NCBI RefSeq assembly: GCF_024105735.1
Contig: NZ_JAAAML010000002.1
Coordinates: 868,001 to 932,000 of the forward strand
Direction: 5' to 3'
Origin: Parahoeflea alexandrii
Lineage (GTDB): Bacteria; Pseudomonadota; Alphaproteobacteria; Rhizobiales; Rhizobiaceae
DNA length: 64,000 nt
The position numbers were made by a program, and so were the translations under genes. The notes below the pieces were generated by a model that worked only from the letters and a program-made list of their open reading frames with translations, was not told where the DNA came from and made no database searches. Shown in pieces: positions 37,749 through 60,654 of this stretch. Position 1 is the stretch's first letter; each line of letters opens with the position of its first letter.

Positions 37749-38861
37749 ATGCAGATCGGCGTGATTGTCAATCCGATCGCGGGTATGGGGGGCACCGTTG
37801 GACTCAAGGGAACGGATGGTCCCGATGCGGTCGCCGAAGCCTTGCGCCGCGGGGCCGAGGCCCAGTCCGGACCGCGGGCGCGCAGGGCCTTGGCAATTCT
37901 TGCAAAACGATGCCCTCGGGCCAGGCTGAGGGTTGCTGCCGGAAGCCTCGGTCAGTGTTGGGCGAGTGACCTCGGACTTGATCTTGACGTTGTGTCCGCA
38001 GGCCCGCCAACCGGTACCGCGCGCGACACACGTGAGGCGATTGCGGTGCTGGGTGCGGTGGACATGGTCGTCTTTGCCGGCGGTGACGGGACAGCCCGTG
38101 ATGTTGCCGGAGCGCTTTCCAGCGGGGCGGGCATGCTCGGAATTCCCTGTGGGGTGAAGATGCATTCGGGTGTCTTCGCAGTGTCTCCGGAGAGCGCGGG
38201 GCACATCCTCGCTGATCTTGTCGAAGGCAATGGCAGGGCCGGCTGGACGGATGAGGCGGAAGTCATGGACATTGATGAAGTGGCCTTGCGTGCTGGACGC
38301 CTTGCGCCGCGTCTCTATGGTCTCGCGCGGGTTCCGGTGGTGGCAAACCGGATGCAGGCTGCCAAGGGTGGGCCGCGCCGCGATTCGGCGGCGGCTCTTG
38401 CCGCTGCCGCACACGAATGTGCACGGGCTTGCGAGCCTGGCGCTCTCTACATCGTTGGCCCCGGCAGCAGCGCCGGAGCTTTCGCAAGGGCTCTCGGTCA
38501 TGAGCCGACGCTTCTCGGTGTGGATGTGTTCAGAGACGGTGAATGTCTTGTTCAGGACGCGACGGCACCCCGGATTGAATCATTCCTCGATGACCGGCCG
38601 GTACGCATTGTGCTTGGAGTGACGGGTCAGCAGGGCTTCTTGCTGGGTAGAGGCAACCAGCAAATCAGCGCTGACGTCATACGCCGCGCAGGACGCGAAG
38701 GGCTCAGGGTTCTGGCGACAGAAGACAAGCTCTCCACTCTTTCCGCTGCCGCGTTGTTCGTCGATACAGGCGATCCGGATCTCGATCAGGAGTTGGCCGG
38801 GTTCATCCGTGTGCAGACGGACAGGGGCAGATTCATGATGATGCGTGTCGTTGCGAGTTGA
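37749..38861 (+). CDS. ATP-NAD kinase family protein (AcoX-like)
   Basis: This 370-residue protein of the NAD-kinase/diacylglycerol-kinase fold, COG3199/AcoX type, has the nucleotide motif FAGGDGTARDVAGAL near residue 115 and the N-terminal IGVIVNPIAGMGGTVGLKGTDG. AcoX relatives lie in acetoin and related catabolic operons; their reaction is unresolved. It is divergent from the GST gene and followed by the gcvPA-like gene after 58 bases, which hold an operator-like site. It may be a regulatory or cofactor enzyme for the lipoyl/PLP systems nearby, which is speculation. Confidence 0.82.
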   Translation: MQIGVIVNPIAGMGGTVGLKGTDGPDAVAEALRRGAEAQSGPRARRALAILAKRCPRARLRVAAGSLGQCWASDLGLDLDVVSAGPPTGTARDTREAIAVLGAVDMVVFAGGDGTARDVAGALSSGAGMLGIPCGVKMHSGVFAVSPESAGHILADLVEGNGRAGWTDEAEVMDIDEVALRAGRLAPRLYGLARVPVVANRMQAAKGGPRRDSAAALAAAAHECARACEPGALYIVGPGSSAGAFARALGHEPTLLGVDVFRDGECLVQDATAPRIESFLDDRPVRIVLGVTGQQGFLLGRGNQQISADVIRRAGREGLRVLATEDKLSTLSAAALFVDTGDPDLDQELAGFIRVQTDRGRFMMMRVVAS

Positions 38862-38866
38862 AACAA

Positions 38867-38893
38867 TTCGTGCGTTGTGCGAACCTTTGTACG
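38867..38893. promoter_or_regulatory. Operator-like site B upstream of gcvPA
   Basis: CGAACCTTTGTACG (38880-38893) is an inverted repeat of the CGnACAwwTGTnCG type (one arm imperfect), preceded by TTCGTGCG (38867-38874) at the same spacing as in site C. It sits in the 58-base gap between the AcoX-like gene and gcvPA, 27 bases before the gcvPA start. Confidence 0.6.
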
Positions 38894-38919
38894 AAAATTG
38901 CAGGTGAGGTGAAAATTCC

Positions 38920-40326
38920 ATGACTATCGAACAGCGTGCCCATCCATGGATGGCTCTATCGGCGCCGGGAGCGCTGCAACAGATGCTTGACGAAATCGGG
39001 GTTAAGGATGTGGCCGCCGTTTTCGAGCAGATTCCCGCGGACCACTTTCGCAAGGCGCCACTTGATCTGCCTCCCGCGCTGGGCTCGGAAATGGAGCTGA
39101 AGCGGGATCTCGTGTCCAAGCTGCGCAAGAACGAGGATTGCGAGACCAATCTGAGCTTTCTCGGCGCGGGCGTTTGGCAGCACCATGTTCCCGCCGTTGT
39201 CGATGAGATCGTCGGCCGGACCGAGTTTGCCACAAATGTCTGGGGCTCATACCAGTCCGACCACGGTCGCAACCAGGCCTGGTTCGAATTCTCGAGCCAG
39301 CTGGGTGCTTTGCTCAATCTCGATGTCGTGCAGTTGCCGGTCTACTCCTGGGGCTGCGCGATAGGCCACGCCATACGAATGGCCACCAGGCTGACGGGCC
39401 GGCGCAAGGTGCTGCTTCCTGTTCTGTCAGACCCTGAGAGGCTCTCTGTGATCAGGACCTACTGTCAGCCCAGCGAAATGGAAAGCCACATCGAGGTGGT
39501 GCCCGTCGCGGCCGATCCGACCAGCGGACGATTGTCAATCAGTGACCTGAAATCGAAACTGGGCCCGGATGTTGCCGCTGTCTATTTCGAGAACCCCGCC
39601 TATCTGGGAACGATCGAGAACGGTGCCGCCGAGATAGCGCGGCTTGCACGCGAAGCCGGCGCGGAAACGATTGTCGGCGTGGACCCCATAAGCCTCGGTG
39701 TGATGATGGCTCCGGGGGACTATGGCGCCGATATCGTCACCGGTCCGGTTCAGCCCCTTGGCGTGCACATGCATTGTGGTGGCGGGGTCGGAGGTTTCAT
39801 CGCCTCTCGTGACGAAGAGCGCTATGTCCGGGAATACAACGGGTTTCTTGTTTCCATCGCCCCCACGGCCGAACCCGGCCAAGTGGGTTTCGGCCTCGCC
39901 GCCTCACACCAGAATTCCTATGGCTCGCGCGAGCATGGCAAGGACTGGACCGGCAATTCCACCTATCTCTGGGCCATCGCCGGTGCGGTCTACATGAGCC
40001 TGCTTGGGCCGCAAGGATTCCGCGAGGTCGGGACCCTCATCCTGTCGCGGGCCCGATATGCAGCCCGGTTGTTGAACGAGATCCCGGGCGTGAAGGCAGT
40101 CTGGCCCGAGACAGGCTTCAAGGAGTTTGTGGTCAATTTCGATGACACCGGAAAGACGGTTGAAGCCGTCAATGACGCGCTGAGGGCGCGCGGCATCTTT
40201 GGTGGAAAGGACATTTCAGGCGAGGGGCACGGTTTGGGGCAGGCGGCGCTTTACTGCGTGACGGAAGTCCACAGCGCCGCCGATATCCGCCGACTTGCCG
40301 ATGCAGTGAAGGAGATTTGCCAATGA
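38920..40326 (+). CDS. Glycine dehydrogenase-like subunit 1 (GcvPA-like), divergent
   Basis: This 468-residue homologue is the N-terminal half of the glycine-decarboxylase P-protein. DLPPALGSEMELKRDL, the SFLGAGVW segment and the domain order match GcvPA, but hallmark motifs differ. The usual TPYQPEISQG reads GSYQSDHGRNQ near residue 110, and the YDGATA-type motif reads YSWGCA near 142. The active site is therefore changed and the substrate may not be glycine. It is coupled to the GcvPB-like gene by a four-base overlap. gcvT and gcvH are absent from the window. A candidate operator lies 27 bases upstream. Confidence 0.8.
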   Translation: MTIEQRAHPWMALSAPGALQQMLDEIGVKDVAAVFEQIPADHFRKAPLDLPPALGSEMELKRDLVSKLRKNEDCETNLSFLGAGVWQHHVPAVVDEIVGRTEFATNVWGSYQSDHGRNQAWFEFSSQLGALLNLDVVQLPVYSWGCAIGHAIRMATRLTGRRKVLLPVLSDPERLSVIRTYCQPSEMESHIEVVPVAADPTSGRLSISDLKSKLGPDVAAVYFENPAYLGTIENGAAEIARLAREAGAETIVGVDPISLGVMMAPGDYGADIVTGPVQPLGVHMHCGGGVGGFIASRDEERYVREYNGFLVSIAPTAEPGQVGFGLAASHQNSYGSREHGKDWTGNSTYLWAIAGAVYMSLLGPQGFREVGTLILSRARYAARLLNEIPGVKAVWPETGFKEFVVNFDDTGKTVEAVNDALRARGIFGGKDISGEGHGLGQAALYCVTEVHSAADIRRLADAVKEICQ

Positions 40327-41870
40327 AACTGCCAAACTATCACGCCCCCCGTTGGGATGAACCGGTAGTCATGGAGCTGGGACGCCCCGGCGCCCGCGGG
40401 CAGCTGTTTCCCGCGCCCGAGCAGGAAATTGAGGTGGCCGAGATCCCCGCGGCGATGCAGCGCAAGGACAGGCCGGAACTTCCCGAGATCACCGAGTTCG
40501 AGGCGCAGCGCCACTACCTCCACCTGTCTCAGATGACGCTCGGCATGATGGGCATCAGCCTGTTTGGCACCTGCACGATGAAGTACAATTCCAAGACAGC
40601 AGAAGCGGCAACCTTGCGACCGGAACTGGCCGAGGTTCATCCCTATCAGCACCCGGATACCCTGCAAGGCGTTCTTGAAATCATTCATGATTTCGATGGA
40701 ATCCTGCAAAACCTCTCGGGAATGGACCAGTTTGTGTTCCAGGCAGGCGGCGGCGCGGACGCAGCCTATACGATGGCGGCACTCGCCCGCGCCTACTGGG
40801 CCGACCGGGGCGAGCTTGGGCAACGCACCGAGATGGTGACTTCGATCCAGGCGCATCCGTGCAATCCGGCAACGGCTGCGGCCGCCGGCTTTACCGTGAT
40901 CAATCTGCCGCTCGAGGAAAACGGCTACCCGTCAATCGAAGCACTGAAGGCTGCGATCGGTCCCAAGACCGCGCTTCTCATGATCAACAATCCCGACGAC
41001 ATGGGCATCTACAATCCGGAGATAAAGGAATGGGTGCGCCTGGCCAAGGAGGCCGGCGCCCTGTGCTTCTACGATCACGCAAACTTCAATGGCGTGATGA
41101 GCAAGTTGTCTGCCCGTGAACTCGGTTTCGACGCCTGCATGTTCATGCTCCACAAGACCTTTGGTGCCCCCAAGGGTGGAGGTGGCCCGGCAGTTGGCGC
41201 CTTTGGGTGCTCGGATGAACTTGCTCCTTATCTGCCGGCACCGGTTGTGGTGAAGCAGGGCGACACCTACCGCCTCGACAATGACCGTCCGAAATCGCTC
41301 GGCAAGATCCGCGAGTTTTGGGGCAATGTCCCCCAGGTCGTGAAGGCCTATGCATGGGCCCGCGCGATGGGCGCCGAGGGGATCGCGATGGCCTCCGATA
41401 TCTCCGTCGTGGCCAACAACTACATGGACAAGAAGCTCGGTGAGATTGCCGGTATCGAGATATCCAATCCGCACATCCGCAAGCGGCGCATGGAGATGAC
41501 CCGCTGGTCGCTTGGACCACTGGCTCAGGAGACTGGAATCGGCACCGCCGATTTCGCCAATCGCATGGCCGACTACGGCATCGATCCGTGGTGGATGAGC
41601 CATGAGCCCTGGATCGTTGCCGAACCGTTCACGCCGGAAGCCGGGGAATTGTGGTCCAAACAGGACATTGACCAGTGGATCGGTGTCGTCGCCCGTATTG
41701 TCCAGGAAGCCCGGGAGACGCCCGAACTGGTCAAGTCGGCTCCTCACAACCAGGCGATCGCCCAGGTTGACGGCAGCGTCTTCGAGGATCCGAAAGCATG
41801 GGCAATGACCTGGCGGGCGTGGCAGCGAAAGCGTGCTGGCGACGCGAAGGCGCGCAGCGGTTCAGCCTGA
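40323..41870 (+). CDS. Glycine dehydrogenase-like subunit 2 (GcvPB-like), divergent
   Basis: This 515-residue homologue is the C-terminal, PLP-binding half of glycine decarboxylase. The PLP lysine is K278 in LHKTFGAPKGGGGP, and FGTCTMKYN (residues 81-89) is kept in outline. The usual SAHGTNPASA reads QAHPCNPATA near residue 177, YDGANLN reads YDHANFN, and PHGGGG reads PKGGGG. Catalysis by PLP is therefore likely, with an altered substrate pocket. ATG at 40323 overlaps the upstream stop codon. A tandem AcoX-like gene and FAD oxidases nearby suggest a catabolic, not housekeeping, role. Confidence 0.85.
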   Translation: MKLPNYHAPRWDEPVVMELGRPGARGQLFPAPEQEIEVAEIPAAMQRKDRPELPEITEFEAQRHYLHLSQMTLGMMGISLFGTCTMKYNSKTAEAATLRPELAEVHPYQHPDTLQGVLEIIHDFDGILQNLSGMDQFVFQAGGGADAAYTMAALARAYWADRGELGQRTEMVTSIQAHPCNPATAAAAGFTVINLPLEENGYPSIEALKAAIGPKTALLMINNPDDMGIYNPEIKEWVRLAKEAGALCFYDHANFNGVMSKLSARELGFDACMFMLHKTFGAPKGGGGPAVGAFGCSDELAPYLPAPVVVKQGDTYRLDNDRPKSLGKIREFWGNVPQVVKAYAWARAMGAEGIAMASDISVVANNYMDKKLGEIAGIEISNPHIRKRRMEMTRWSLGPLAQETGIGTADFANRMADYGIDPWWMSHEPWIVAEPFTPEAGELWSKQDIDQWIGVVARIVQEARETPELVKSAPHNQAIAQVDGSVFEDPKAWAMTWRAWQRKRAGDAKARSGSA

Positions 41871-41900: not shown

Positions 41901-43031
41901 TCAGAAAAGCGCTGAAACACCGTTGAGCGGCAATCGCGGTTGGCGGCCGAGAATCATGTCGGCCGTCAGCCTTGCGGTGATCGGACCCGCCGAGAAGCCC
42001 ACCCAGGGAAACAGCGACAGAAAGAAACCCTTATGGCCTGGCACCTCGCCAATGATTGGTCTCCAGTCTTCCGTTCCATTGACAGTCGCTGTCCAGCTTC
42101 GAACCGCCCGGGCCTGCCCGAGCGTGGGCACCAGGTTGGCTGCATTGGTCATGTTGCCGGCAAGATGAGCCGGATTGGTCACCAGCCGTCCGTCGGCAAG
42201 GCGGCGGGCATGCCATCCGCCGCCAATCAGGCAGCTGCCGTTGTGGGCCTGCTTGAGCGAAAGTTTGCCCGCTGCGGAATAGACCAGATGCGGAATCAGC
42301 GGCGCCACCGGTTCGGTGACCGTGACCTGCAGCGGAACGCCCTGCAGAGCAATTGGGATCCCGAGCATGGCCGCGATGTCGGCGGCCGCTGCACCGGCGG
42401 CGTTGACGATCCTGCGCGCCTCGATTGTTCTCTCCCCGGTCCTCACGCGGTATCCTCCGGACGTCGGTTCAAGGCCGAGGATGCGGGTCCGCGTCAGCAT
42501 GCTCGCGCCCCGGCGTTCTGCAGCCGCCGCAAATGCCGGCGTCGCTTTCAGCGGGTTGGCCTTTCCCTCGATGGGGCAGAACCCGGCACCGATCGCGGTC
42601 TCCGCGAGATAGGGCGCGAGTATTCTCAAGCTGTCCCTGTCGAGGATCTCGATGGGAACCCCGAAACTGCGCTCGATCTTGGCCTTTGCCTCGATCTGCC
42701 GCATCTGTTCCGGTGTTGTGGCGACGAGCAATCCGCCTCCCAGGCTGACGTCAAGATCCACCCCAAGTTCTGCACCCAGTCCCAGCCACATCTGTTGCGA
42801 TTCGATCAGAAGCCGGAGTGTGGGGCCATAGGCTCGGGCCCAGTCAGGCCCCAGGCTGACAAATTCGGGGTGCTGGATCTGCACGTGAATCGACCCGGCA
42901 TTCGCGCCGGATGCCTGGGTGTTGAGATCATCGGCTTCAACCAGTGTCACATCGACACCTTCGGTGGCCAGGTAATAGGCGGTCGCCGCCCCTGCGATAC
43001 CGCCGCCGATCACGAGAACATCAGTTTTCAT
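41901..43031 (-). CDS. FAD-dependent amine/amino-acid oxidoreductase (DAO family)
   Basis: This 376-residue DAO-fold flavoprotein has the FAD loop VLVIGGGIAGAATAYYLA at residues 6-23, the FAD-contact segment EADDLNTQASGANAGSIHVQ and a C-terminal GEVPGHKGFFLSL region. Relatives include sarcosine oxidase, D-amino-acid dehydrogenase and the beta subunits of opine and D-hydroxyproline dehydrogenases. It resembles the second FAD protein at 50.4 kb. It would oxidise a C-N bond next to a carboxylate. ATG at 43031 is used. It is divergent from the DapA-family gene with only 52 bases between starts, so they share a promoter region. Confidence 0.85.
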   Translation of the reverse strand: MKTDVLVIGGGIAGAATAYYLATEGVDVTLVEADDLNTQASGANAGSIHVQIQHPEFVSLGPDWARAYGPTLRLLIESQQMWLGLGAELGVDLDVSLGGGLLVATTPEQMRQIEAKAKIERSFGVPIEILDRDSLRILAPYLAETAIGAGFCPIEGKANPLKATPAFAAAAERRGASMLTRTRILGLEPTSGGYRVRTGERTIEARRIVNAAGAAAADIAAMLGIPIALQGVPLQVTVTEPVAPLIPHLVYSAAGKLSLKQAHNGSCLIGGGWHARRLADGRLVTNPAHLAGNMTNAANLVPTLGQARAVRSWTATVNGTEDWRPIIGEVPGHKGFFLSLFPWVGFSAGPITARLTADMILGRQPRLPLNGVSALF

Positions 43032-43083
43032 ATCCAACCTTCAACCCAGCCCGGGCATTCCGGGGACTCATGAGGACCATCCA

Positions 43084-44022
43084 ATGACGACGACTTTTTC
43101 CGGCAGCTATACGGTTACGATCACGCCTTTCACGCCGGGTGGAGAAGCGATTGACTATTCGGCTTGGGAGCGCTTTCTCGATTGGCAGGTTGCCTGCGGT
43201 GTTCCCGGCATCATCATTCTCGGCACCACTGGCGAATTTCTGACGATCACCGACGAAGAGCGCAGTGCGTTTGTCGAAGCAACCGTCAAACACGTCAACG
43301 GCCGTATGAAGGTGCTGGTCGGGACCATGAATGCCTACACTCCGAACGCTGTGCGTTATTCCAAGGAGGCCGAGGCGCTCGGTGCGGATGGACTGATGAT
43401 TATCCCGCCTTACTATTACACGCCGACCGAAGACGAGATCTTCAACTATTACAAGGCGATATGCGAAGCGCAAAACCTCCCGATCATGCTCTACAACAAC
43501 CCGTTCACGTCCAACGTCGACATGTCCGCATCGCTTGTTGCCCGGTTGACCAAGGCGTTCAGCCAGATCCGCTATATCAAGGAGGCCAGTCAGGACACCG
43601 CGCGCGTCCATGACATCATCGTTGCAAGCGAGGGGGTGATGAATGTCTGGGCGGGACAGCGTGTGCTTGAAAGCTACAAGATGGGCGCCACCGGTTACGT
43701 CAACCCCTATGGCAACTACATTCCGAGAGCCTCGGTCAAGTTCGTGGAGTGGGCGGAGCAGGGGCGCTGGGAGGATGTCTGGGCAGTGCAAAGCGTGATC
43801 AAGAAATTCGACGCCATCATCACGGAGGGCCATCCGCTCTACGGCCATCAGTGTTACTCGAAGGCGCTGGCTGCGGCAGCGGGTTACCCGGTCGGTGATG
43901 TGCGCGCTCCGATCACGACATTCGCCTCGCTTGGCAAGGAAGGCGCTGAACGTGTGGCCAAGATGGTCCCACTCATGGCCGAACTTGAACGTATTGTCGA
44001 CAGGATCGAGGCTGGCTCGTAG
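43084..44022 (+). CDS. DapA-family (dihydrodipicolinate synthase-like) lyase
   Basis: This 312-residue TIM-barrel class I aldolase of the DHDPS/N-acetylneuraminate lyase superfamily carries LGTTGEF (T48/T49, carboxylate binding), the tyrosine in LYNNPF and the Schiff-base lysine K166 in YIKEAS. Such proteins include DapA, sugar-acid aldolases/dehydratases and LhpC-type hydroxyproline-pathway deaminases. Its place beside FAD oxidases suggests a catabolic lyase or deaminase and not lysine synthesis, although the exact reaction is open. A second paralogue lies at 56.8 kb. Confidence 0.88.
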   Translation: MTTTFSGSYTVTITPFTPGGEAIDYSAWERFLDWQVACGVPGIIILGTTGEFLTITDEERSAFVEATVKHVNGRMKVLVGTMNAYTPNAVRYSKEAEALGADGLMIIPPYYYTPTEDEIFNYYKAICEAQNLPIMLYNNPFTSNVDMSASLVARLTKAFSQIRYIKEASQDTARVHDIIVASEGVMNVWAGQRVLESYKMGATGYVNPYGNYIPRASVKFVEWAEQGRWEDVWAVQSVIKKFDAIITEGHPLYGHQCYSKALAAAAGYPVGDVRAPITTFASLGKEGAERVAKMVPLMAELERIVDRIEAGS

Positions 44023-44875: not shown

Positions 44876-45979
44876 CTAGCTCCTGGTGATGAATGGCTTG
44901 CCGCGCATCGCCGGATTGCAGCGCGCATACGGGGCTGGAAGCTGAACTTCCGCGCCCAGCTCCTTGGCGGCGTGCCAGACCCAGCGCGGGTCCCACAGCA
45001 TTCCGCGAGCCAGAGCCACGGCATCTGCCTGCCCGCTCAAGAGAATGGTTTCCGCCTGAACCGGATCGGTGATCTGTCCGACCGCCAGCGTGGCTGTTTC
45101 AGCCTGCCACTTGATCTCGTCGGCAAACCGGACCTGATAGCCGGGGCCGGCAACGATTTCCTGCCGTTGATCAAGTCCCCCTGAACTCACATGGATCATC
45201 TCGCATCCGGCTTTCTTGAGCGCCTTGGCAAACTCGACCGATTGCACCAGGTCCCAGCCGCCCTCGATCCAGTCCGTGGCTGACAGCCTCAGGATAACCG
45301 GCCGGTCGGCGGGAAAGGCTTGCCGCACCGCATCGAAAACCTCGAGCGGAAACCTCATGCGGTTTTCCAGAGAGCCGCCATAGGCATCCTTGCGGCGGTT
45401 GCTGATCGGCGAGAGAAACTGGTGCAACAGATAGCCGTGCGCCGCATGCACCTCGATGAGATCGAAGCCGGCGCGAGCTGCCCTCCGTGTGGCATCCACA
45501 AAGGCCGCCTTTATGCGATCAAGGCCGTAGTGATCGATTTCCGAAGGCGGTTCCCAGCCCTCCAGATAGGGCTCGTTCGAAGGAGCGCCTGTTTTCCACC
45601 CACCTTCCGCGAGACTGATCTGGCCTGCACCCTCCCAGGGTTTGCGCGTGCTGCCCTTGCGCCCCGCATGGCTGAGTTGAATCCCGATCTTGCTCTCGCC
45701 AACCGAGCGGCAGAAATCGATGATCCTGGCAAAGGCTGCTTCCGAGGCATCGGAATAAAGGCCGGTGCAAGCAGGGGTAATACGCCCCTCGGCCTCGACA
45801 CCGGTGGCTTCAACCAGGATCAACCCTGGCCCGGACTGCGCAAACTGGCCCAGATGGACCAGGTGCCAGTCTGCCGGTACGCCGTCACTGGCCATGTACT
45901 GGCACATCGGCGCAACCACAATTCGATTGGCAAGTTCGAGCTTGCCAATGGTGAGCGGTGAAAACAGCAGACTGGACAT
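44876..45979 (-). CDS. Old yellow enzyme family NADH:flavin oxidoreductase
   Basis: This 367-residue FMN TIM-barrel protein of the YqjM-like class has IVVAPMCQYMA near residue 20, QLSHAGRKGS near residue 100, EVHAAHGYLLHQFLSP and the NRRKDAYGGSLENR motif near residues 190-210. These proteins reduce activated C=C bonds with NAD(P)H; in catabolic clusters they often act on enones or enamines. It is the first gene of an operon with the SDR and divergent from the sugar-isomerase gene, with site C between them. Confidence 0.92.
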   Translation of the reverse strand: MSSLLFSPLTIGKLELANRIVVAPMCQYMASDGVPADWHLVHLGQFAQSGPGLILVEATGVEAEGRITPACTGLYSDASEAAFARIIDFCRSVGESKIGIQLSHAGRKGSTRKPWEGAGQISLAEGGWKTGAPSNEPYLEGWEPPSEIDHYGLDRIKAAFVDATRRAARAGFDLIEVHAAHGYLLHQFLSPISNRRKDAYGGSLENRMRFPLEVFDAVRQAFPADRPVILRLSATDWIEGGWDLVQSVEFAKALKKAGCEMIHVSSGGLDQRQEIVAGPGYQVRFADEIKWQAETATLAVGQITDPVQAETILLSGQADAVALARGMLWDPRWVWHAAKELGAEVQLPAPYARCNPAMRGKPFITRS

Positions 45980-47774: not shown

Positions 47775-48719
47775 ATGAAGCAAGCAGGCCATCTTGTCGT
47801 TCTGGGAGCCGGATCAATCGGCGTTTCCTTTTCAGCCGTGTTCCGGGATGCCGGTTTCGAAGTCACCATCTGCGACCCTGATACGGAACGCAGCAGCGCT
47901 GCAACGCAGGCCATTGAAGCGCAGCGCGCTGCAATGGCACTGGCCGGTCTGGAGCGTGGCGGAAACGGCAAGCTGAATGTAGTGGGCAGCCTCGATAGTA
48001 CCGTGGAAAAAGCCGATATGGTGATTGAGGCTGGGCCTGAACGCCTTGAGGACAAGCAGGCGATCTTCCTGGATCTGCTGGAGCGGGCATCCCAGGATGC
48101 AATCCTCGCGACGGCATCGTCGGCAATTCCGATGTCACGCATTCTCCCCCGTCCCGCGGATCAGGCACGCTGTCTGGTGGCACATCCGGTCAATCCGCCC
48201 GCAATCCTTCGCCTGATTGAATTGTGCCCGGCGCCGGCGACATCTCCACAGACCATGGAGAAGGCTTCGCTTCTTTTCGATCGTGCGGGTTTTCGGTCGG
48301 TCCGGCTGGGTCACGAGATCGAGGGCTTTGTGCTCAATCGTCTTCAGGGGGCCGTGCTGCGCGAGGCCTACCGGCTGGTTGACGAAGGAGTCGTCGGCGC
48401 CGAGGATCTCGATGCGGTCATGCGGCTCGGTCTCGGCCCGAGATGGGCACTCTCGGGTCCCTTTGAAACGGCGGAACTCAATACGCCGGGCGGCATCCGC
48501 GCCCATGCTGCGCGAATGGGTCCGGCCTATCGGGCGATGGGAGAGGGCAGAGGCGAAACCGGCTGCGACTGGAGTACAGCGCTGGTGTCGCGGGTTGAAT
48601 CGGAACGCCGCGCGGTTGTTTCCGAGCAGGCTCTTCCGAAACGGGCGGAATGGCGTGTAAAGGCTGTCGCGCGGCTTGTGGCCGTTCGTGACAAACTGCT
48701 GGGAGAGGCCGATGTCTGA
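47775..48719 (+). CDS. 3-hydroxyacyl-CoA dehydrogenase-like (L-gulonate dehydrogenase-like) protein
   Basis: This 314-residue NAD-binding dehydrogenase has the Rossmann loop VLGAGSIGVSFSAVF at residues 9-23, the family motif AHPVNPPAIL near residue 136 and NRLQGAVLREAYRLV near residue 188. The single-domain length matches CRYL1/L-gulonate 3-dehydrogenase and carnitine-dehydrogenase-like relatives more than fatty-acid enzymes. It would oxidise a beta-hydroxy acid. It overlaps the next gene by eight bases, so it is in one operon with the flavoprotein pair. Confidence 0.83.
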   Translation: MKQAGHLVVLGAGSIGVSFSAVFRDAGFEVTICDPDTERSSAATQAIEAQRAAMALAGLERGGNGKLNVVGSLDSTVEKADMVIEAGPERLEDKQAIFLDLLERASQDAILATASSAIPMSRILPRPADQARCLVAHPVNPPAILRLIELCPAPATSPQTMEKASLLFDRAGFRSVRLGHEIEGFVLNRLQGAVLREAYRLVDEGVVGAEDLDAVMRLGLGPRWALSGPFETAELNTPGGIRAHAARMGPAYRAMGEGRGETGCDWSTALVSRVESERRAVVSEQALPKRAEWRVKAVARLVAVRDKLLGEADV

Positions 48720-50385
48720 TCAACCTTCGGGTTTCACCTTCAATGGCCGTCCGGTCGCATTGCGCATCGGCCAGTCGGTGGCTGCAGCATTGACCGAAGC
48801 CGGCCAGCGCCCTTTCCGCGTCACGGCGAAGGGGGAAAAGCGCGGCATGTTCTGCGGCATGGGTGTGTGTCAGGACTGCCTGGTCACCGTCAATGGCGTG
48901 CCGAACCAGCGAGCTTGTATGACGCCCGCCAGGGACGGAATGCAGGTTGCCACGCAGGTCGCCTTTGCCGCGCTGACCGAGCAGCCGGCCGTGCAAACGC
49001 AGGAAGGCCGGCAGCTTGCGCCAGACGTTCTGGTCATCGGTGCCGGAGCCGGTGGGCTCAATGCAGCAATCGCAGCGGCCGGATCCGGTGCCGGAGTTGT
49101 CGTCCTTGATGAGCGCAAGGTCTCGGGCGGGCAATACTATAAGCAGGCGGCCGGGGCCGCCTCTGTGCTGGATACCCAGCAGCAGGATGGTGCGGCACTG
49201 ATCGCCGCGGCCGTGTCCGCCGGTGTGGAGATCCTCTCGGAGGTTGAGGTCTGGGGCGTGTTTGAAGGCCTTCTCGTCATGGCCCATCACGAAGGCCGAG
49301 CGCTCATTGCCAGACCCAGGACACTCATCGTCGCGACGGGCGCCTTTGAGCGCCCACGCATGGTGCCTGGCTGGACGCTGCCCGGAGTCATGACCACCGG
49401 TGCCGCACAAACGCTCTGGCGGAGCTATCGGACCCTGCCGGGCAAACGCGTGGTCGTCGCCGGCTCCGGGCCGCTCAATCTTCAGGTAGCTCTGGAACTG
49501 TCTCGCGGTGGGGCGGATGTGGTGATGGTCTCCGAGTCCGCCCGCCCGCCACATCGGCAGCCGCTGGCTGCCGCCAGGATGGTTGCTGCGGGCCCTCGGC
49601 TTGCGGCACGCGGGCTGGCGATGTCGCTGGGGTTGCGGCAACGCGGGGTCAACGTGGCCCATCAGACCAGCCTGTCCCGTGTCGTTGAGGTCGAAAACGG
49701 TCTGAAGGCGAGTTTCAAGGATGCCCACGAACGTCAGATCGACCACCTGGTGGATGCCGTGTGCATGAATGATGGTTTTGAGCCTCAGAACGAAATCCTG
49801 CGTTTGCTTGGTGCGGACATGAGGTATGACCCAGCTTTTGGCCACCTTCGGTGCAAGCGGGATTCAACCATGCAAACGAGCGTGCCGCAGCTTTATGCCA
49901 TAGGCGACTGCGCTGGCCTGGGCGGCGCGCCTGCTGCCAGCGTCGAGGGCACCATTGCGGGGCTGGCTGCCGCTTCCTACTGCCGCGACACGCCAGTGCC
50001 GGATCTGCGAAAACTGCAGTCCAGTCTTGCCGCGCATCGCCGGTTCCAGCAACGGCTGTGGGCACTCTATGACATTGGGCCTCGGGATCTGTCGGCGCAG
50101 GACGATGATCTTGTCGTGTGTCGCTGCGAAGAGGTTTCTCTCGGCGAGCTTCGCCAGGCGCTGGGCACCGCGCCCGGGCACGCAGGAACGGTCAAGCGCG
50201 CGACGCGGGCCGGGATGGGCAGGTGTCAGGGGCGTTATTGCGGGCCGGTGACGGCGCGCATGGTCGCGGAGCGGGACAATCGTCAGGTGGAAGACCGTAG
50301 TTTCTACGCGCCACGGGTTCCAATCAAGCCCGTCAGCATAACCGCCATCCTCGCAGCACAGGAGATGCTGGATGGAAACGATTGA
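48712..50385 (+). CDS. [2Fe-2S]-FAD dehydrogenase large subunit (opine/D-hydroxyproline dehydrogenase-like)
   Basis: This 557-residue multidomain flavoprotein has three parts. Residues 1-95 are a [2Fe-2S] domain with C48, C53, C56 and C69. Residues 105-460 are a pyridine-nucleotide/FAD oxidoreductase domain beginning DVLVIGAGAGGLNAA. Residues 465-515 are a BFD-like [2Fe-2S] domain with CRC and, later, CQGRYC. In Lhp and Hcn/Oox systems the small [2Fe-2S] protein and the FAD subunit are separate; here they are fused. It overlaps the 3HCDH-like gene by eight bases and the partner FAD gene by 14. It probably carries electrons from a C-N oxidation. Confidence 0.87.
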   Translation: MSDQPSGFTFNGRPVALRIGQSVAAALTEAGQRPFRVTAKGEKRGMFCGMGVCQDCLVTVNGVPNQRACMTPARDGMQVATQVAFAALTEQPAVQTQEGRQLAPDVLVIGAGAGGLNAAIAAAGSGAGVVVLDERKVSGGQYYKQAAGAASVLDTQQQDGAALIAAAVSAGVEILSEVEVWGVFEGLLVMAHHEGRALIARPRTLIVATGAFERPRMVPGWTLPGVMTTGAAQTLWRSYRTLPGKRVVVAGSGPLNLQVALELSRGGADVVMVSESARPPHRQPLAAARMVAAGPRLAARGLAMSLGLRQRGVNVAHQTSLSRVVEVENGLKASFKDAHERQIDHLVDAVCMNDGFEPQNEILRLLGADMRYDPAFGHLRCKRDSTMQTSVPQLYAIGDCAGLGGAPAASVEGTIAGLAAASYCRDTPVPDLRKLQSSLAAHRRFQQRLWALYDIGPRDLSAQDDDLVVCRCEEVSLGELRQALGTAPGHAGTVKRATRAGMGRCQGRYCGPVTARMVAERDNRQVEDRSFYAPRVPIKPVSITAILAAQEMLDGND

Positions 50386-51499
50386 TCTGCTTGTCGTTGG
50401 CGGCGGTATCGTCGGATTGACGGCGGCGATCGCTGCGGCCGAAGGCGGCGCACGTGTTGCACTCGTCGACGCGGCCATCAACGCGGGATCGAACGCGAAT
50501 GCGGGCAGCCTTCATGTCCAGATGCAAAGCCGGTTCATCAGGCTGTTTCCCGATCAGGCCCCCAACGTCGAGGCCTCGCTGCCGCTTTACCTCAGTGCCG
50601 TGAAGGAATGGGAGCGGCTGGACAGGGAGATCGGGCCGTTCGAACTTGTCCGAAAGGGCGGCCTGATGCTGGCTGAAAGCGCGGAGCAAATGGCGTTTCT
50701 CGAGCAAAAGGCTGCGCGGGAAGCTCGCCAGGGTCTTCACGTTGACTTGCTGGGTCGAAGCGAACTGGACAAGCTTGCCCCTTGGCTTGGAGAACAGATC
50801 GTCGGTGCCGAGCTCTGCCACGATGAAGGCAAGCTGAACCCGCTTGTGGCCAATGTCCGCCTCCGCGCGCGTGCCATCGAGCTGGGAGTGGACATGCAGA
50901 TCGATCATGTGACCGGGCTGGGACAGCAGGGACATGTCACCGTCCATTGCGCCAGCGGCCGTGTTCATCACTGCGACAAGGTCATCCTTGCAGCCGCCTG
51001 GGGGGTTGGATCTCTTGTGCAGGGGTTCGGACTGGACCTGCCCGTCAGGGCCGAGCCACTGCATATGAACATAACCGAGGCGGGGGCCGGGCAGATCAAT
51101 CATCTCATTCAGCATGCTGAGCGGTCCATCACCCTCAAACAATTCGGATCAGGCCAGATCGTTATTGGCGGTGGATGGCAGGCGCAGAGCCGCGGCAATC
51201 AGGATGTGCCCGGCGTTCTGGCGCAATCCCTGCTCGGCAATATTGCCCTGGCGGCACGGCTGGTGCCTTCCATCGGTCAGCTCAGGGTGATCAGAACCTG
51301 GGCGGGGATGAACACGACGTTGGACGGCAAGTCGCTTCTGGGCGGCGTGCCCGGCGCCGAAAGGATCATCCTCGCAGTGCCCGGCGACGCCGGCTACACA
51401 TTGGGACCGTTGTGTGGGCGGGCGGCCGCTTGCCTGGCGCTCGGCAATGAGCCGCCACTGGATATCGATCCATTCACGCCGGGGCGGTTCAGTGCTTGA
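50372..51499 (+). CDS. FAD-dependent dehydrogenase small subunit (DAO family)
   Basis: This 375-residue DAO-fold protein has VVGGGIVGLTAAIAAAEGG at residues 7-25, the segment NAGSNANAGSLHVQMQSRF and the late GGVPGAERIILAVPGD. It is the probable partner of the fused [2Fe-2S]-FAD subunit, as OoxB/HcnC/LhpB-like proteins partner their large subunits. It would bind and oxidise an amino- or imino-acid-like substrate. GGAGATG lies just before its ATG and inside the upstream gene. Its end overlaps the end of the convergent IclR gene by 11 bases. Confidence 0.87.
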   Translation: METIDLLVVGGGIVGLTAAIAAAEGGARVALVDAAINAGSNANAGSLHVQMQSRFIRLFPDQAPNVEASLPLYLSAVKEWERLDREIGPFELVRKGGLMLAESAEQMAFLEQKAAREARQGLHVDLLGRSELDKLAPWLGEQIVGAELCHDEGKLNPLVANVRLRARAIELGVDMQIDHVTGLGQQGHVTVHCASGRVHHCDKVILAAAWGVGSLVQGFGLDLPVRAEPLHMNITEAGAGQINHLIQHAERSITLKQFGSGQIVIGGGWQAQSRGNQDVPGVLAQSLLGNIALAARLVPSIGQLRVIRTWAGMNTTLDGKSLLGGVPGAERIILAVPGDAGYTLGPLCGRAAACLALGNEPPLDIDPFTPGRFSA

Positions 51500-52370
51500 G
51501 TGCCTGTGAGATGGTCGCTGCGGTCTGCTGCAGCTTGGGCAACACCGTTTCCACCATGTTGTCCGCGCTCATGCGCAGGGTCGGGGCGCCGACATTGATT
51601 GCGCCAACGAGGCCGCCAAAGGAATTGCGCAGAGGAACCGCGATCGACAGCAAGCCCTTTTCCAGTTCCTGGTCGACAATCGACCAGCCTTTGTCTCGGA
51701 CGGTTTCGAGTATCTTTCGAAACTCGTTGCGGTCGGTCACGGTGCGATCTGTCATGGGAAACAGCGGAATGTTCTGCAGAATGCCCGGCCACATCTCCGG
51801 TGGTTGTGCGGCCAGCAGCACGCGTCCCGTCGCTGTGCAGTGAGCCGCGAAACGCGCGCCTACGGTTATGCCTACGGAAATCACCCGGTGGTACTGGGTG
51901 CCGCTGACGTAAACCACTTCGAATTTGTCCAGAACCGCTGCTGACACCGATTCGCGGATCTCCTCGGAAAGATGGTCGAGAAAGGGACGCGCAATATCCC
52001 AGGCGCCCTTGGAGGACAGCACCGAATAGCCCAGTTCGAGCACCTGCGGGGTCAGGTCGAAGAGTTTTCCATCGGCGACCGCATAGCCTTCATGCACGAG
52101 GGTCAGCAGAATCCGCCGGGCACCGGCCCTGGTGTTTCCGGTTTCGGCGGCAACTTCCGACAGGGTCATCTTCCGGCGTGTGCGATTGAAGGCGCGGAGC
52201 ACTTCAAGCCCCCGGGCGAGCGAACTCACATAGTCCCGCGGATTCAGGCCACCATTGTCTGGATCATCCTGGAAATCGGATGAAGCGGTCATCAAACCTG
52301 TGCGCTGCCCGGACTTTGGACCTATGCCAGTGCTCTCATGCTTGGCTTCCGATTTGGGTTTCTGCGCCAT
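51489..52370 (-). CDS. IclR-family transcriptional regulator
   Basis: This 293-residue regulator has an N-terminal winged helix at about residues 48-105 (LARGLEVLRAFN, TLSEVAAETGNTRAGARRILLTLVHEG) and a C-terminal effector domain at about 120-285. The effector part includes HCTATGRVLLA, DQELEKGLLSIAVPLRN and GAINVGAPTLRM. It looks like the PcaR/PobR type, which often activates catabolic genes. ATG at 52370 has GAGGAG seven bases upstream. It is divergent from the CUT1 ABC operon, sits at the centre of the catabolic region and is the best candidate to bind the repeated operator-like sites. A degenerate site lies in front of its own gene. Confidence 0.92.
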   Translation of the reverse strand: MAQKPKSEAKHESTGIGPKSGQRTGLMTASSDFQDDPDNGGLNPRDYVSSLARGLEVLRAFNRTRRKMTLSEVAAETGNTRAGARRILLTLVHEGYAVADGKLFDLTPQVLELGYSVLSSKGAWDIARPFLDHLSEEIRESVSAAVLDKFEVVYVSGTQYHRVISVGITVGARFAAHCTATGRVLLAAQPPEMWPGILQNIPLFPMTDRTVTDRNEFRKILETVRDKGWSIVDQELEKGLLSIAVPLRNSFGGLVGAINVGAPTLRMSADNMVETVLPKLQQTAATISQALKH

Positions 52371-52384
52371 GATTCGGCTCCTCG

Positions 52385-52398
52385 CGCACAATTGTAAA
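52385..52398. promoter_or_regulatory. Degenerate operator-like site in front of the IclR gene
   Basis: CGCACAATTGTAAA keeps one full arm and the centre of the CGnACAwwTGTnCG type, with the last two bases changed. It lies 15-28 bases upstream of the regulator's start, next to its ribosome site, and could serve autoregulation. Confidence 0.4.
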
Positions 52399-52491
52399 TT
52401 TCCCAGACGCCTTAGCACACGCGATTGTGGGGGTGCAGCGGAAAAATCTCAAAATCAACACTTGCCACACAATCCAAAAATGGTGTTATAT

Positions 52492-52515
52492 CGCACAAGA
52501 GTACGGTATGTGAAC
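52492..52515. promoter_or_regulatory. Operator-like site E upstream of the CUT1 ABC operon
   Basis: CGCACAAGAGTACG (52492-52505) followed by GTATGTGAAC (52506-52515) lines up with site D along its whole length. It lies 27-50 bases before the binding-protein start at 52542 and 122 bases from the regulator start, in the divergent promoter region. Confidence 0.65.
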
Positions 52516-52541
52516 AAAATCAGCAACCAAGGGAGACGATA

Positions 52542-53876
52542 ATGAGCAATTCGGGGAATGGGAAATTCGATGTGACGCGCCGCGGCGCACTCAAGGGCCT
52601 GGCGGCTTCGACCGTTTTGGCGACGCTTCCGGTGCGGGCATGGGCCCAAGATGTGACCCTGCGCTGGTGGTCGCCGCAAGGCTCACCCGACCAGGTGGCG
52701 GCCTACAAGTTCCAGATCGAGCAGTTCGAAGCCATGCATCCCGGTATCAAGGTAGTCTTCGAGACGACGTCGGATGAGGGGTATGCGCCGCAGCTCGCTG
52801 CTGCGTTCTCGAGCGGCGAAGTGCCGGACGTGGTTACGCACCTGCCGTCCTTTGCGGTCGCGAGCTATTACGCGAACGGTCTGGTCGAGCCGTTTGACGA
52901 TGTCATCGAGGCTATCGGCGCCGATGATTACTATGCTGGAGCCAATGATGTCTTCAAGGCTGCCGACGGAAAGTACATCGGCACGGGCATCGGCAACACT
53001 GCCGCCAACATGCTCTGGCTGCGAAAAGACCTGATGGAAGCTGCCGGCGTCGACAAGGCGCCCGAGACCTGGGACGAATTGCGCGCGGCCTGTCAGGCCA
53101 TGCAGGGCGGTGGCGTGTACGGTGCCCCGCTGCCCTATGGCCGCAATTCCATGACCTCGCTGATCTTCATCGGCGTCATCCACCAGGCAGGCGGGCAGGT
53201 TTTCACGCCGGATCTTGAAGTCGACATCGACAGCGACGCCACTCGCGCTGCGCTGGACTTCTATGCTTCCATGCGTGAGCTGTGCCCTCCCGGTGCCACC
53301 AACTACAGCTGGGGCGAGAGCCTGACTGCATTTGTCAGCGGCGCATCAGCCACCGGCATCTATGCAGGCCGCGTGCTGGCCAACGTCAATGCTCAGAATC
53401 CGGGCATCGCCAACTCCGTCACCTGCGTGACCTATCCCCGGATCTCGACCGATGTGGCTCCCTGGACGTTCAACGACTTCCCGAGCGTCTTTATCCCGGC
53501 GCAGTCCAAGCACAAGGATGCGGCCAAGATGTTCGCGGCCTTCCTGTTCAACCCGGAAGGCTACATCAAGCAGCTGCACGCAGCTCCCGGCCATGTGCTG
53601 CCGGTGCTCAAGTCGATCAGCACGAATCCGATGTATCTCGATAATGCGATCATCAAGGCGTACGAATCCGAAGTCGATCTGATGGCTTCCGCTGCGGCGG
53701 GCGGTTACAATCTCGGCTATGAATCGGCAGCGCACAAGTCCAACGACAAGGGCGGTGAGGTTGTCGGCAGCGGAGTGATTGCGGACCTTGTTCAGCGCGT
53801 CGTGCTCAACGGCGAGAACGCCGATACTGTTCTGGGCGAGACATCGAAGACAATCGAAGCCATCATGAAGGGCTGA
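52542..53876 (+). CDS. CUT1-type ABC transporter substrate-binding protein
   Basis: This 444-residue SBP_bac_1 protein has a twin-arginine-type signal (FDVTRRGALKGLAAS, about residues 9-23, cleavage after AWA near 36). The mature part has LRWWSPQGSPDQVAAY and the extracellular sugar-binding features FEAMHPGIKVVFETT, VPDVVTHLPSF and NPEGYIKQLHAAPGHVLPV. GGGAG precedes ATG at 52542. It heads an operon of two permeases and an ATPase, then catabolic genes, so its ligand is probably the pathway substrate. The family binds sugars, polyols or glycosides. Confidence 0.94.
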   Translation: MSNSGNGKFDVTRRGALKGLAASTVLATLPVRAWAQDVTLRWWSPQGSPDQVAAYKFQIEQFEAMHPGIKVVFETTSDEGYAPQLAAAFSSGEVPDVVTHLPSFAVASYYANGLVEPFDDVIEAIGADDYYAGANDVFKAADGKYIGTGIGNTAANMLWLRKDLMEAAGVDKAPETWDELRAACQAMQGGGVYGAPLPYGRNSMTSLIFIGVIHQAGGQVFTPDLEVDIDSDATRAALDFYASMRELCPPGATNYSWGESLTAFVSGASATGIYAGRVLANVNAQNPGIANSVTCVTYPRISTDVAPWTFNDFPSVFIPAQSKHKDAAKMFAAFLFNPEGYIKQLHAAPGHVLPVLKSISTNPMYLDNAIIKAYESEVDLMASAAAGGYNLGYESAAHKSNDKGGEVVGSGVIADLVQRVVLNGENADTVLGETSKTIEAIMKG

Positions 53877-53886
53877 GATCGCAACT

Positions 53887-53914
53887 CGCGTGGCGGTGAT
53901 TTCGCCGCCACGCG
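53887..53914 (+). other. Hairpin between binding-protein and permease genes
   Basis: A perfect 10-bp stem (CGCGTGGCGG at 53887-53896 with 53905-53914) and an eight-base loop fill most of the 41-base gap after the binding-protein stop. It has no T-run. Such hairpins often protect the binding-protein mRNA or reduce read-through, so that more binding protein than permease is made. Confidence 0.6.
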
Positions 53915-53917
53915 CTC

Positions 53918-54826
53918 ATGAGAAACCCAATGATCAAAAACAAGCAGACAAAGCTGGAGCGGCACTACGCCACTCTGGGTATGATGTTGATTGCGCCTAC
54001 CGTCCTGGTGTTTTGCGCGGTTATCGTCTACCCGCTGGTTTCGGCAATCTATCTGAGCCTGTTCGACATCTACACCCCGACGCTGCAAGGCGAATGGGTC
54101 GGTCTGGACAATTATCGCGAGCTGCTTGGCAAGGGTGAGTTCTGGGCATCTCTTCGCACCAACCTGATCTGGACCGTTGGCACACTCAGCCTTCAGATCC
54201 TGTTCGGTATCGGCATGGCCCTGGTGCTGCACCAGAACATCTGGTTTCGCAGTCTTGCACGCAGCCTGATCCTGTTTCCATATTTCATCTCGACCGTTGT
54301 TGCGGTTCTGGTCTGGCGCTGGCTGTTCAACGATCTCTACGGCATCCTCAACCATCTGATGATGGCCGCAGGGCTGATCGACATGCCGGTCGACTATCTT
54401 GGTTCCATGCCCAATGCGATGATTTCGGTCATTCTCGTGGGTGCATGGAAGTATTTTCCGTTTGTTGTCATCGCCGTGCTGGCACGGCTGCAGACGATCC
54501 CCGACTCGCTTTACGAGGCTGCCCGCATTGACGGCGCCGGCCCGGTTGCACGCTTTTTCGATATCACTTTGCCTCAGCTGCGTGATGTGCTCGTGGTTAT
54601 CATCATGCTGCGCGCAATCTGGGACTTCAAGGAATTCGACCTGATCTTCCTGCTCACCGGTGGTGGCCCCGTCACCTCGACCCAGACACTGCCGCTGCTC
54701 GTCTACAAGGAAGCCTTCTCCCTCAACAACATGGGAATGGCTGCGGCCTACGCGGTCGCCATGATGGCGGTGATGCTGGTCTTCATGATCCTCTACATTC
54801 GCAAGACCGGGGAGAAAGACGCATGA
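53918..54826 (+). CDS. CUT1 ABC transporter permease 1 (MalF-like)
   Basis: This 302-residue inner-membrane permease has six helices, from LGMMLIAPTVLVFCAVIVYP to the last helix AVAMMAVMLVFMILYIR. The EAA coupling loop is EAARIDGAGPVARFFDITLPQL near residues 205-226. ATG at 53918 is used; ATG at 53930 is a possible alternative. Its stop overlaps the second permease start in ATGA form. Together with the next gene it forms the channel for the sugar-type importer. Confidence 0.93.
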   Translation: MRNPMIKNKQTKLERHYATLGMMLIAPTVLVFCAVIVYPLVSAIYLSLFDIYTPTLQGEWVGLDNYRELLGKGEFWASLRTNLIWTVGTLSLQILFGIGMALVLHQNIWFRSLARSLILFPYFISTVVAVLVWRWLFNDLYGILNHLMMAAGLIDMPVDYLGSMPNAMISVILVGAWKYFPFVVIAVLARLQTIPDSLYEAARIDGAGPVARFFDITLPQLRDVLVVIIMLRAIWDFKEFDLIFLLTGGGPVTSTQTLPLLVYKEAFSLNNMGMAAAYAVAMMAVMLVFMILYIRKTGEKDA

Positions 54827-55644
54827 TACGCCGCGTTCTCTTCAACTTGATGGCCTGGGCCATTGTGCTGGCAGTCGCCTTTCCGCTGTTCTGGATGGTG
54901 GTCACGTCGCTCAAGCCGCAGTCCGAGCTCTTCCGGCGACCTCCGACAATATTGCCGGAAGTCACCACGTTCGAGCACTACTGGCGGCTGCTCAGTGAAA
55001 CGAATTTCCTCACCTACTTCCAGAACTCGGTGGTCCTCTCGGTTGTCACCACGGTGGTGGTCGTCTCGATCGCGACGCTTGGCGCCTATTCGATCGTGCG
55101 TTTCAAGTACTGGGGACGCGAGAGCCTGGCGTTTCTTGTCCTCTTTACCTACTTGCTGCCTTCGGTCGTCCTCATCATTCCGCTCTATCTCATGCTGGTC
55201 GGCCTTGGCTTGTCGAACACGATATTCAGCCTGGTGATAGCCTATACGACCTTTGCGCTGCCCTATGCGCTGTGGCTGCTTCGTTCGTTCATGGCAGGAA
55301 TACCGGAGGATCTGGAATCGGCTGCCCTGGTTGACGGCGCTTCCCGCATGGGCGCGTTTCGCGACGTGATCTTGCCGCAGCTTCTGCCGGGCATCATCTC
55401 GACGGCGTTGTTCACGTTCATCCTGTCCTGGAACGAATATCTTTACGCTCTGGTGCTGGTGAATTCCGACAACACCCGTCCCCTCACAACCGGCGTGATG
55501 AACATGCTGATCTCGTCATTCAACGTCGAATGGTCGCTGTTGATGGCGGCCTCGGTGATGATGAGCGTTCCGCTGATCATCGTGTTTGCCTTCCTGCAAA
55601 GTTATCTAACCCGCGGCTTCGGCGCTGGCGGGGTCAAGGGTTGA
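54823..55644 (+). CDS. CUT1 ABC transporter permease 2 (MalG-like)
   Basis: This 273-residue partner permease has six helices, including ILAVAFPLFWMVVTSLKP-like and YLLPSVVLIIPLYLMLV regions. The EAA-type loop is ESAALVDGASRMGAFRDVILPQ near residues 165-186. It overlaps the first permease by four bases and precedes the ATPase by two bases. The family transports mono- and oligosaccharides, polyols and some glycosylated compounds. Confidence 0.93.
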   Translation: MIRRVLFNLMAWAIVLAVAFPLFWMVVTSLKPQSELFRRPPTILPEVTTFEHYWRLLSETNFLTYFQNSVVLSVVTTVVVVSIATLGAYSIVRFKYWGRESLAFLVLFTYLLPSVVLIIPLYLMLVGLGLSNTIFSLVIAYTTFALPYALWLLRSFMAGIPEDLESAALVDGASRMGAFRDVILPQLLPGIISTALFTFILSWNEYLYALVLVNSDNTRPLTTGVMNMLISSFNVEWSLLMAASVMMSVPLIIVFAFLQSYLTRGFGAGGVKG

Positions 55645-55646
55645 TC

Positions 55647-56741: not shown

Positions 56742-56784
56742 CCCGTTACCCATTCAAAGCTGCACTTTCCTCAGGAGATCCAAG

Positions 56785-57705: not shown

Positions 57706-57720
57706 TCAAGGGAGATAGAC

Positions 57721-60593: not shown

Positions 60594-60654
60594 CCGCGGC
60601 GGGCACGACCAATCGGCCATCGAAGGCCTTTACCAACACGAAATGGAACGTCCA

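Follow-up and report, generated by a model that had tools for sequence, protein, structure and literature searches.

P-proteins are the pyridoxal phosphate (PLP)-dependent glycine decarboxylases of the glycine cleavage system, where they act with the lipoyl-carrying H-protein (gene gcvH) and the aminomethyltransferase or T-protein (gene gcvT). They occur either as a single chain (GcvP) or as a split pair (GcvPA/GcvPB), and some true gcvP genes sit apart from gcvH and gcvT. Precedents for a kinase step followed by a PLP enzyme acting on the phosphorylated amino substrate are provided by PduX–CobD, by sphingosine kinase and sphingosine-1-phosphate (S1P) lyase, and by the phospholyases. In NAD kinases, substrate recognition relies on the NE and GSTAY motifs. 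A passage of PMC10943186 describes AcoX of acetoin operons as an orphan kinase associated with an enzyme that cleaves carbon bonds. The present analysis concerns a kinase gene and a GcvPA/GcvPB-like gene pair of Parahoeflea alexandrii, located at positions 37749–41870 of a stretch of 64,000 nucleotides (contig NZ_JAAAML010000002.1, positions 868,001 to 932,000), the whole of which is called the window. This segment is interpreted as one catabolic module, made of a dedicated kinase and a P-protein-derived PLP heterodimer working outside glycine cleavage, an interpretation for which the arguments on the two sides are about evenly balanced. An earlier description made from the letters alone (the first-pass annotation) had singled out the pair as a divergent glycine-decarboxylase-like enzyme; the kinase gene was overlooked at that stage; no other feature of the family is as constant.

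Placement of the pair among P-proteins

The split GcvPA/GcvPB-like pair was reported in the first-pass annotation as matching over the lengths of both proteins, and this is borne out: both open reading frames are present (Table 1), both have full-length homology to GcvPA and GcvPB with PDB profile matches to 1wyt, and both pass the NCBIfam cut-offs. The GcvPA-like subunit (PA) scores 402.9 bits (cut-off 364) and the GcvPB-like subunit (PB) 492.5 bits (cut-off 441), each over nearly the full length of the profile. A fold search with a structure model of PB, which is weak at the N-terminus (mean predicted local distance difference test score 68), ranks the GCSPB chains 9a73_B and 1wyt_B first. 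PB likely starts at ATG 40323 and not at the listed TTG 40317; this ATG overlaps the stop codon of PA as ATGA, which is the commonest PA/PB spacing among relatives (51 of 89 loci). Residue numbers of PB refer to the 517-aa form, in which the PLP lysine is K280; counted from ATG 40323 the same lysine is K278, the number originally given, which is right on that count. The set of 89 loci used throughout comprises 8 plasmid loci, 80 genome loci and the window; the genome loci are the nearest 80 of 271, and more distant kin may differ.

Scores and trees set the pair apart from ordinary P-proteins. Plasmid relatives of PB (8 records) share 51–81% identity with it, and the next match, an ordinary GcvPB, shares 35%. 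In a class sample of 289 genomes, full-length clade members score 610–1006 bits, whereas ordinary P-proteins reach at most 320 bits; in one of these genomes the clade gene is split over two contig ends, with scores of 441 and 346 bits, and ordinary split GcvPBs fetched outside the sample reach 400 bits. In the PB tree, 39 type I and 3 type II rows group together, apart from 23 split and 9 single-chain P-proteins, with a Shimodaira–Hasegawa-like approximate likelihood ratio test (SH-aLRT) value of 100 and a clade branch of 1.71 as drawn from the midpoint root. The PA tree, with 27 type I rows, concurs, its 30 clade rows standing apart with an SH-aLRT value of 100. Several canonical rows are long-branched (a program warning), and all nine single-chain P-proteins are from the window's own genus. 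Rows with fewer than 380 (PB) or 330 (PA) profile positions were left out, and it is this coverage minimum that makes the PA set smaller. Duplicates of one place (L002, L003, L109–L115, L119, L128 and L129) were left out of the counts, as was G196, in which two contig ends (L145 and L146) each hold a part of PB. Three places were entered twice (L148/L060, L150/L067 and L152/L026); counts called ‘distinct’ are without these repeats, which are included in the clade-replacement screen, the search for H- and T-proteins, the kinase tree, the PA tree and distance correlation, and the kinase motif counts. Such trees had been proposed as the check on the original description, and in both of them the pair lies outside the ordinary P-proteins; it very probably represents a family separate from glycine cleavage.

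The residues that hold PLP are kept while the glycine and H-protein motifs change, as first noticed in the window and now seen across 94 distinct clade sequences. The PLP lysine K280, D253 and H180 of PB are present in all 94, and the lysine also in the 32 canonical or single-chain sequences; D253 and H180 correspond to the pyridine aspartate and the stacking histidine of P-protein structures, respectively. All five altered motifs listed initially were found in the translations, and since the changes recur across the clade they are not due to chance. Clade-specific replacements, defined as positions where one residue occurs in at least 90% of split P-proteins and in at most 10% of type I sequences, were screened in 23 split and 94 type I rows (91 distinct) for PB and in 18 split and 91 type I rows (87 distinct) for PA. 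They amount to 49 PB and 30 PA columns (79 in all).

Two regions of PA deserve particular attention. The tyrosine loop TAYTPYQPE..QG is replaced and is one residue shorter in the majority sequence; its first Tyr is kept in none of the 87 distinct type I sequences and in all three type II sequences, and Pro has given way to Gly in 90 of 90. Human Tyr161 and Tyr164 lie inside this loop, and human Arg373 and Lys376 are presumed, by counting along the human sequence, to fall on the segment REQHIRRxKATSNICT, likewise replaced in the clade. A passage of PMC7259800 names the two tyrosines as active-site residues and, from a docking model, puts H-protein contacts at Arg373 and Lys376. All 27 P-proteins have Arg at the position aligned to Arg373, against none of the 90 distinct clade rows, 76 of which have Met, Ser or Leu. 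As to basic residues, PB position 286 is Lys in all 91 distinct type I sequences and His in the three type II sequences and in all 32 P-proteins, and PA H115, which is particular to the clade, occurs in 81 of 90 clade rows. Judged from the sequences, K286 and H115 would suit an anionic substrate.

Genomic context of H- and T-proteins

Neither gcvH nor gcvT was found in the 64-kb window by tblastn (E 1e-4, three H and three T queries), in keeping with the first-pass statement that it holds no aminomethyltransferase and no H-protein. The same search was negative for 99 sequences totalling 1.87 Mb (the window and 98 stretches around relatives, 3 of them repeating a place). All five control loci were detected, two of which are overlapping stretches of the genome's own gcv operon, with queries taken from four of the five. 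A normal gcvTHP set, whose existence elsewhere in the genome had been raised as a point to check, is present: another contig carries a group of ordinary gcvT, gcvH and single-chain gcvP (962 aa), so that the split pair is an extra copy. The genome has one H-protein match only. A 5.1-Mb assembly (G184), whose module is that of L060, a metagenome-assembled genome, contains the module with no H-protein and no other P-protein. The PLP pair is probably independent of H-protein.

The pair is an accessory trait, since it occurs in 2 of the 18 genomes of the genus (own genome counted) and in 7 of the 289 genomes of the class sample, and is also carried on plasmids. Up to 271 places among 84,980 species genomes encode relatives, and the hosts include Alphaproteobacteria, other Pseudomonadota, actinomycetes, Bacteroidota and one haloarchaeon.

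The partner kinase

The gene preceding the pair encodes a small-molecule kinase of the NAD-kinase fold (presumably COG3199 or AcoX-like) that is a near-constant partner of the pair, being no more than 4 kb away in 85 of 86 judgeable loci. Over the full set of 89 loci, the kinase gene is upstream on the same strand in 77 (nearly all within 400 bases, one at 1.4 kb), divergently upstream in 5 and downstream, up to 3.6 kb off, in 3. Four loci have no nearby kinase gene: three stop at a contig edge, and in the fourth, that of the haloarchaeon Natronosalvus halobius, it lies 54 kb away on the same plasmid, near a dihydrodipicolinate synthase (DHDPS)-family gene and genes of short-chain dehydrogenases/reductases (SDRs). 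For type II pairs, which branch more deeply, the kinase gene is downstream in G163, G196 and G626, and in G224 the contig ends there.

The link extends to inheritance. Among the 289 genomes, 7 have the pair, 7 have the kinase and 6 have both (Fisher 6e-11, to be read as a guide only as the genomes are related), and in a sample of 398 genomes of the phylum all three with the pair also have the kinase. Kinase distances track PB distances (r 0.88 over 83 loci, with none of 2000 permutations as high). In a tree with 42 of the 87 linked rows, type I kinases and the archaeal kinase form one clade (SH-aLRT 96), the type II and G087 kinases standing outside.

The GGDGT motif is found in all 84 distinct linked kinases, and the NE and GSTAY motifs of NAD kinases in none of the 87 linked rows. 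NAD kinase as the job of the linked kinase was therefore rejected, the more so since the genome has a separate NADK with both motifs. A structure model of the kinase (predicted TM score 0.55) gave no Foldseek match under E 0.001; its weak fold matches include diacylglycerol kinases. The kinase probably acts in the same pathway as the PLP pair.

The sole kinase without a clade pair in the 289 genomes, that of G087, was considered as a counter-example and rejected, since it adjoins another P pair, namely a second, fully canonical-motif GcvPA together with a GcvPB reading in two frames (L165, 6890–13018). Upstream in this stretch are a glycine-C-acetyltransferase-like gene (below the model cut-off) and an epimerase-family gene, and no H- or T-protein was found in it. 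The wider kinase family occurs in 38 of the 398 genomes of the phylum sample. Two further contexts can be mentioned. In Pseudoalteromonas (L157, 1213–8116), a kinase homologue lies downstream of fadI and fadJ, with no P pair found in the stretch. In Peptoclostridium acidaminophilum (L156, 8992–11068), a kinase of the family overlaps a PLP-enzyme gene resembling HisC or CobD, below both model cut-offs; this is a single case.

Proposed function and alternative explanations

Because the glycine and partner-protein motifs are lost and an orphan kinase is almost always alongside, the substrate of the pair is probably other than glycine, as far as can be read from sequence. In the order of steps envisaged for the module, the kinase would phosphorylate a hydroxylated amino substrate, and the PLP pair would form an aldimine on Lys280 and cleave one of the alpha-carbon bonds, decarboxylation being the likeliest reaction. 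Protonation or phosphate loss would then replace transfer to lipoyl-H, and the released amine, enamine or aldehyde would go to neighbours that vary, such as FAD or amine oxidases, an aldo-keto reductase–RidA protein, an aldehyde dehydrogenase or an acyl-CoA ligase. That the kinase acts on the PLP enzyme's own substrate is a conjecture with slightly less in its favour than against it. Still more tentative is the idea of a new PLP reaction class derived from glycine decarboxylase, in which a lipoyl-H-free heterodimer in series with a dedicated kinase would cleave a phosphorylated (hydroxy)amino acid.

A number of observations weigh against such a module. Of the 42 cassette-bearing or kinase-linked genomes searched, own included, 41 encode an H-protein somewhere (10 of 11 in one set, 31 of 31 in the other), and an H-protein of another locus could act in trans. 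The G184 assembly is 90% complete, and an entire gcv operon could lie on a contig absent from it. The docking segment comes from a published model and not from a structure, and the docking position aligned to Lys376 has Lys in 24 of 94 clade rows. Some canonical residues persist in type II members (PB His 286, PA Asp 143 and the first Tyr of the PA loop), and PA R117, tried as a new basic residue, was rejected: frequent as it is in the clade, all 9 single-chain P-proteins have Arg there too. Since the G087 kinase lies beside a canonical GcvPA, kinase linkage alone is no sign of a new substrate; the kinase may serve P-type chemistry generally or act on a by-product. Of the 35 genomes of the phylum sample with the wider kinase family and no pair, none of the 15 contexts read (in other classes of the phylum) shows a P pair. 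If such kinases share a role with AcoX, that role may, by analogy, not be substrate phosphorylation. Regarding the PLP decarboxylase-like enzyme with a new substrate proposed in the first-pass annotation, what stands is what is seen in the sequences, that is kept PLP residues, replaced glycine and H motifs, a single clade and H- and T-proteins not found locally, together with a linked and co-inherited kinase; the new substrate itself and H-independence in vivo are putative.

Among the alternatives, the one that survives best, although unlikely, takes the pair for a PLP decarboxylase or lyase that needs no H-protein and acts on an amino acid other than glycine, and the kinase for a pathway accessory (cofactor making or repair, or treatment of a by-product) that does not act on the substrate of the pair. 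The second pairing of the kinase, with the canonical-motif GcvPA of G087, agrees with this explanation, but so tight a linkage would be more usual for enzymes of consecutive steps.

It is improbable that the PLP pair is a lyase (by phospho-elimination or retro-aldol cleavage) on a phosphorylated substrate, after the manner of S1P lyase or the phospholyases. Such an activity would be consistent with a kinase adjoining a PLP enzyme, with the first fold match of the PB model after the P-proteins, which is human S1P lyase (4q6r, rank 20), and with diacylglycerol kinases among the weak matches of the kinase model. However, the S1P lyase match is unspecific, as cysteine desulfurases score alike and the comparison had no canonical PB control model, no kinase fold match reaches E 0.001, and the P-protein ancestor is a decarboxylase.

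The acetoin dehydrogenase complex uses lipoyl. It is with this complex that AcoX works according to a passage of PMC10943186, and this, like the ancestral mechanism, would accord with a pair that, in the style of E1 enzymes, passes its carbanion to a carrier protein, lipoyl-bearing or other, whose gene lies elsewhere; yet no H-type protein was found near the loci in a search aimed at H and not at other lipoyl domains, and the modelled docking segment is lost, making this explanation highly improbable. Equally hard to sustain is a glycine-cleavage P-protein using the genome's single H-protein and the T-protein of the other locus, which would explain the passed NCBIfam cut-offs and fit the H-proteins of the own genome and of the others checked, but runs against the separate clade, the replaced active-site loop and modelled docking segment, the canonical single-chain gcvP already in the genome and the cassette without H in G184.

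Gene neighbourhood

The constant core of the locus is the kinase and the PLP pair only (Table 1). A constant link to FAD oxidases had been raised in the first-pass annotation as a point to check; flavin adenine dinucleotide (FAD)-dependent oxidases of the DAO type are present in only 51 of 89 loci, and this linkage was rejected as the defining feature of the family. In loci resembling the window, the module is followed by DAO with a divergent DHDPS-family gene, then by Old-yellow-enzyme-type (OYE), SDR, TIM-barrel, 3HCDH-type, SoxA/DAO and IclR genes. Other counts over the 89 loci are 53 for SDR, 20 for aldo-keto reductase, 15 for class III aminotransferase, 9 for aldehyde dehydrogenase and 7 for AMP-binding proteins; all neighbour counts are rough, as genes were picked and clustered automatically and several contigs are short.

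Table 1. Features of the kinase–PLP pair locus and its surroundings, in window coordinates
Feature	Position	Strand	Basis or remark
NAD-kinase-fold small-molecule kinase, near-constant partner of the pair	37749..38861	+	Pfam NAD_kinase and NAD_kinase_C
GcvPA-like subunit, 468 aa	38920..40326	+	Translation and profile matches
GcvPA-like active-site loop, residues 105-120	39232..39279	+	TAYTPYQPE..QG of P-proteins becomes TNVWG-SYQSDHGRNQ
GcvPA-like segment, residues 331-346	39910..39957	+	Stands where P-proteins have REQHIRRxKATSNICT, to which H-protein docks in the published model
Catalytic GcvPB-like subunit (515 aa when started at ATG 40323; 517 aa in the listed form, from TTG 40317)	40323..41870	+	Translation, profile and fold matches
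PLP lysine codon, K280 (517-aa numbering), in LHKTFGAPKGGGG	41154..41156	+	
GcvPB-like K286	41172..41174	+	PHGGGG of P-proteins becomes PKGGGG
FAD amine/amino-acid oxidase (DAO), non-constant neighbour	41901..43037	-	DAO in 51/89 loci
DHDPS-family aldolase/lyase	43084..44022	+	43/89 loci
OYE-type flavin oxidoreductase	44876..45979	-	34/89 loci
SoxA-like and DAO two-subunit flavin dehydrogenase	48676..51499	+	SoxA-like in 33/89 loci
IclR-family regulator	51489..52418	-	36/89 loci

Neighbour sets vary by lineage. A Rhodococcus and the Gemmobacter plasmid have instead an amino-acid permease, an SDR and an acyl-CoA ligase, with a primary-amine oxidase in addition in Gemmobacter, and further lineages have zinc alcohol dehydrogenases, aldehyde dehydrogenases and luciferase-type oxidoreductases. 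Of the 20 aldo-keto reductases, 16 have at least 480 aa, enough for a RidA fusion, and the one tested (L061, 4513–5979) is fused to a RidA-type (L-PSP) domain. Aldo-keto reductases, RidA-fused in the tested case, and the Gemmobacter amine oxidase fit amine, imine or aldehyde products, the handling of which is, loosely, the theme shared by these sets. A hydroxyproline-type pathway (DAO, DHDPS and aldehyde dehydrogenase) was also weighed; no proline-racemase family occurs among the annotated proteins, with no search aimed at it. Further along the window, at 52425–62100, are a sugar-type ABC transporter, a second DHDPS-family gene, two SDRs, a class III aminotransferase and an aldehyde dehydrogenase, and much of this gene set adjoins the module in several relatives too.

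Annotation of the family and comparison with known systems

All seven annotated plasmid loci fetched are named gcvPA/gcvPB. The NCBIfam equivalog models NF001696 (GcvPA) and NF003346 (GcvPB) accept the window pair, which would explain these names in public records; the name glycine dehydrogenase that they confer is probably wrong for the pair. The family is real, broadly spread and probably misannotated, and no description of it was found in the open-licence PMC literature (titles and beginnings of abstracts). If this is true, automatic annotation assigns a glycine-cleavage function to a whole family doing something else, and a fold thought to be devoted to one-carbon metabolism would have a second use, namely P-protein chemistry that does without lipoyl-H. 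The near-constant kinase also makes an orphan kinase family, the kin of which may include AcoX, accessible to testing, as the substrate of one enzyme would reveal that of the other.

Compared with known systems, the linked kinase resembles NAD kinase in its Pfam NAD_kinase fold and GGDG motif and, unlike the NADK of the same genome, is devoid of the NE and GSTAY motifs. With AcoX it shares the status of an orphan kinase tied to a carbon-bond-cleaving enzyme, and the two may be related in sequence; the partner of AcoX is a thiamine-diphosphate enzyme, and the partner here a PLP enzyme. As in PduX–CobD and sphingosine kinase–S1P lyase, a kinase goes with a PLP enzyme, the two being encoded together here at the frequency given above; this is an analogy, and the PLP enzymes of those systems belong to other families. 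The closest relative remains the split GcvPA/GcvPB of Thermus thermophilus (1WYT/1WYU), likewise a two-subunit fold-type-I PLP enzyme with the same PLP Lys, Asp and His and homology over its full length, from which the present pair differs by its separate clade, its 79 clade-specific replacements, a neighbourhood where H- and T-proteins were not found alongside, and its linkage to a kinase.

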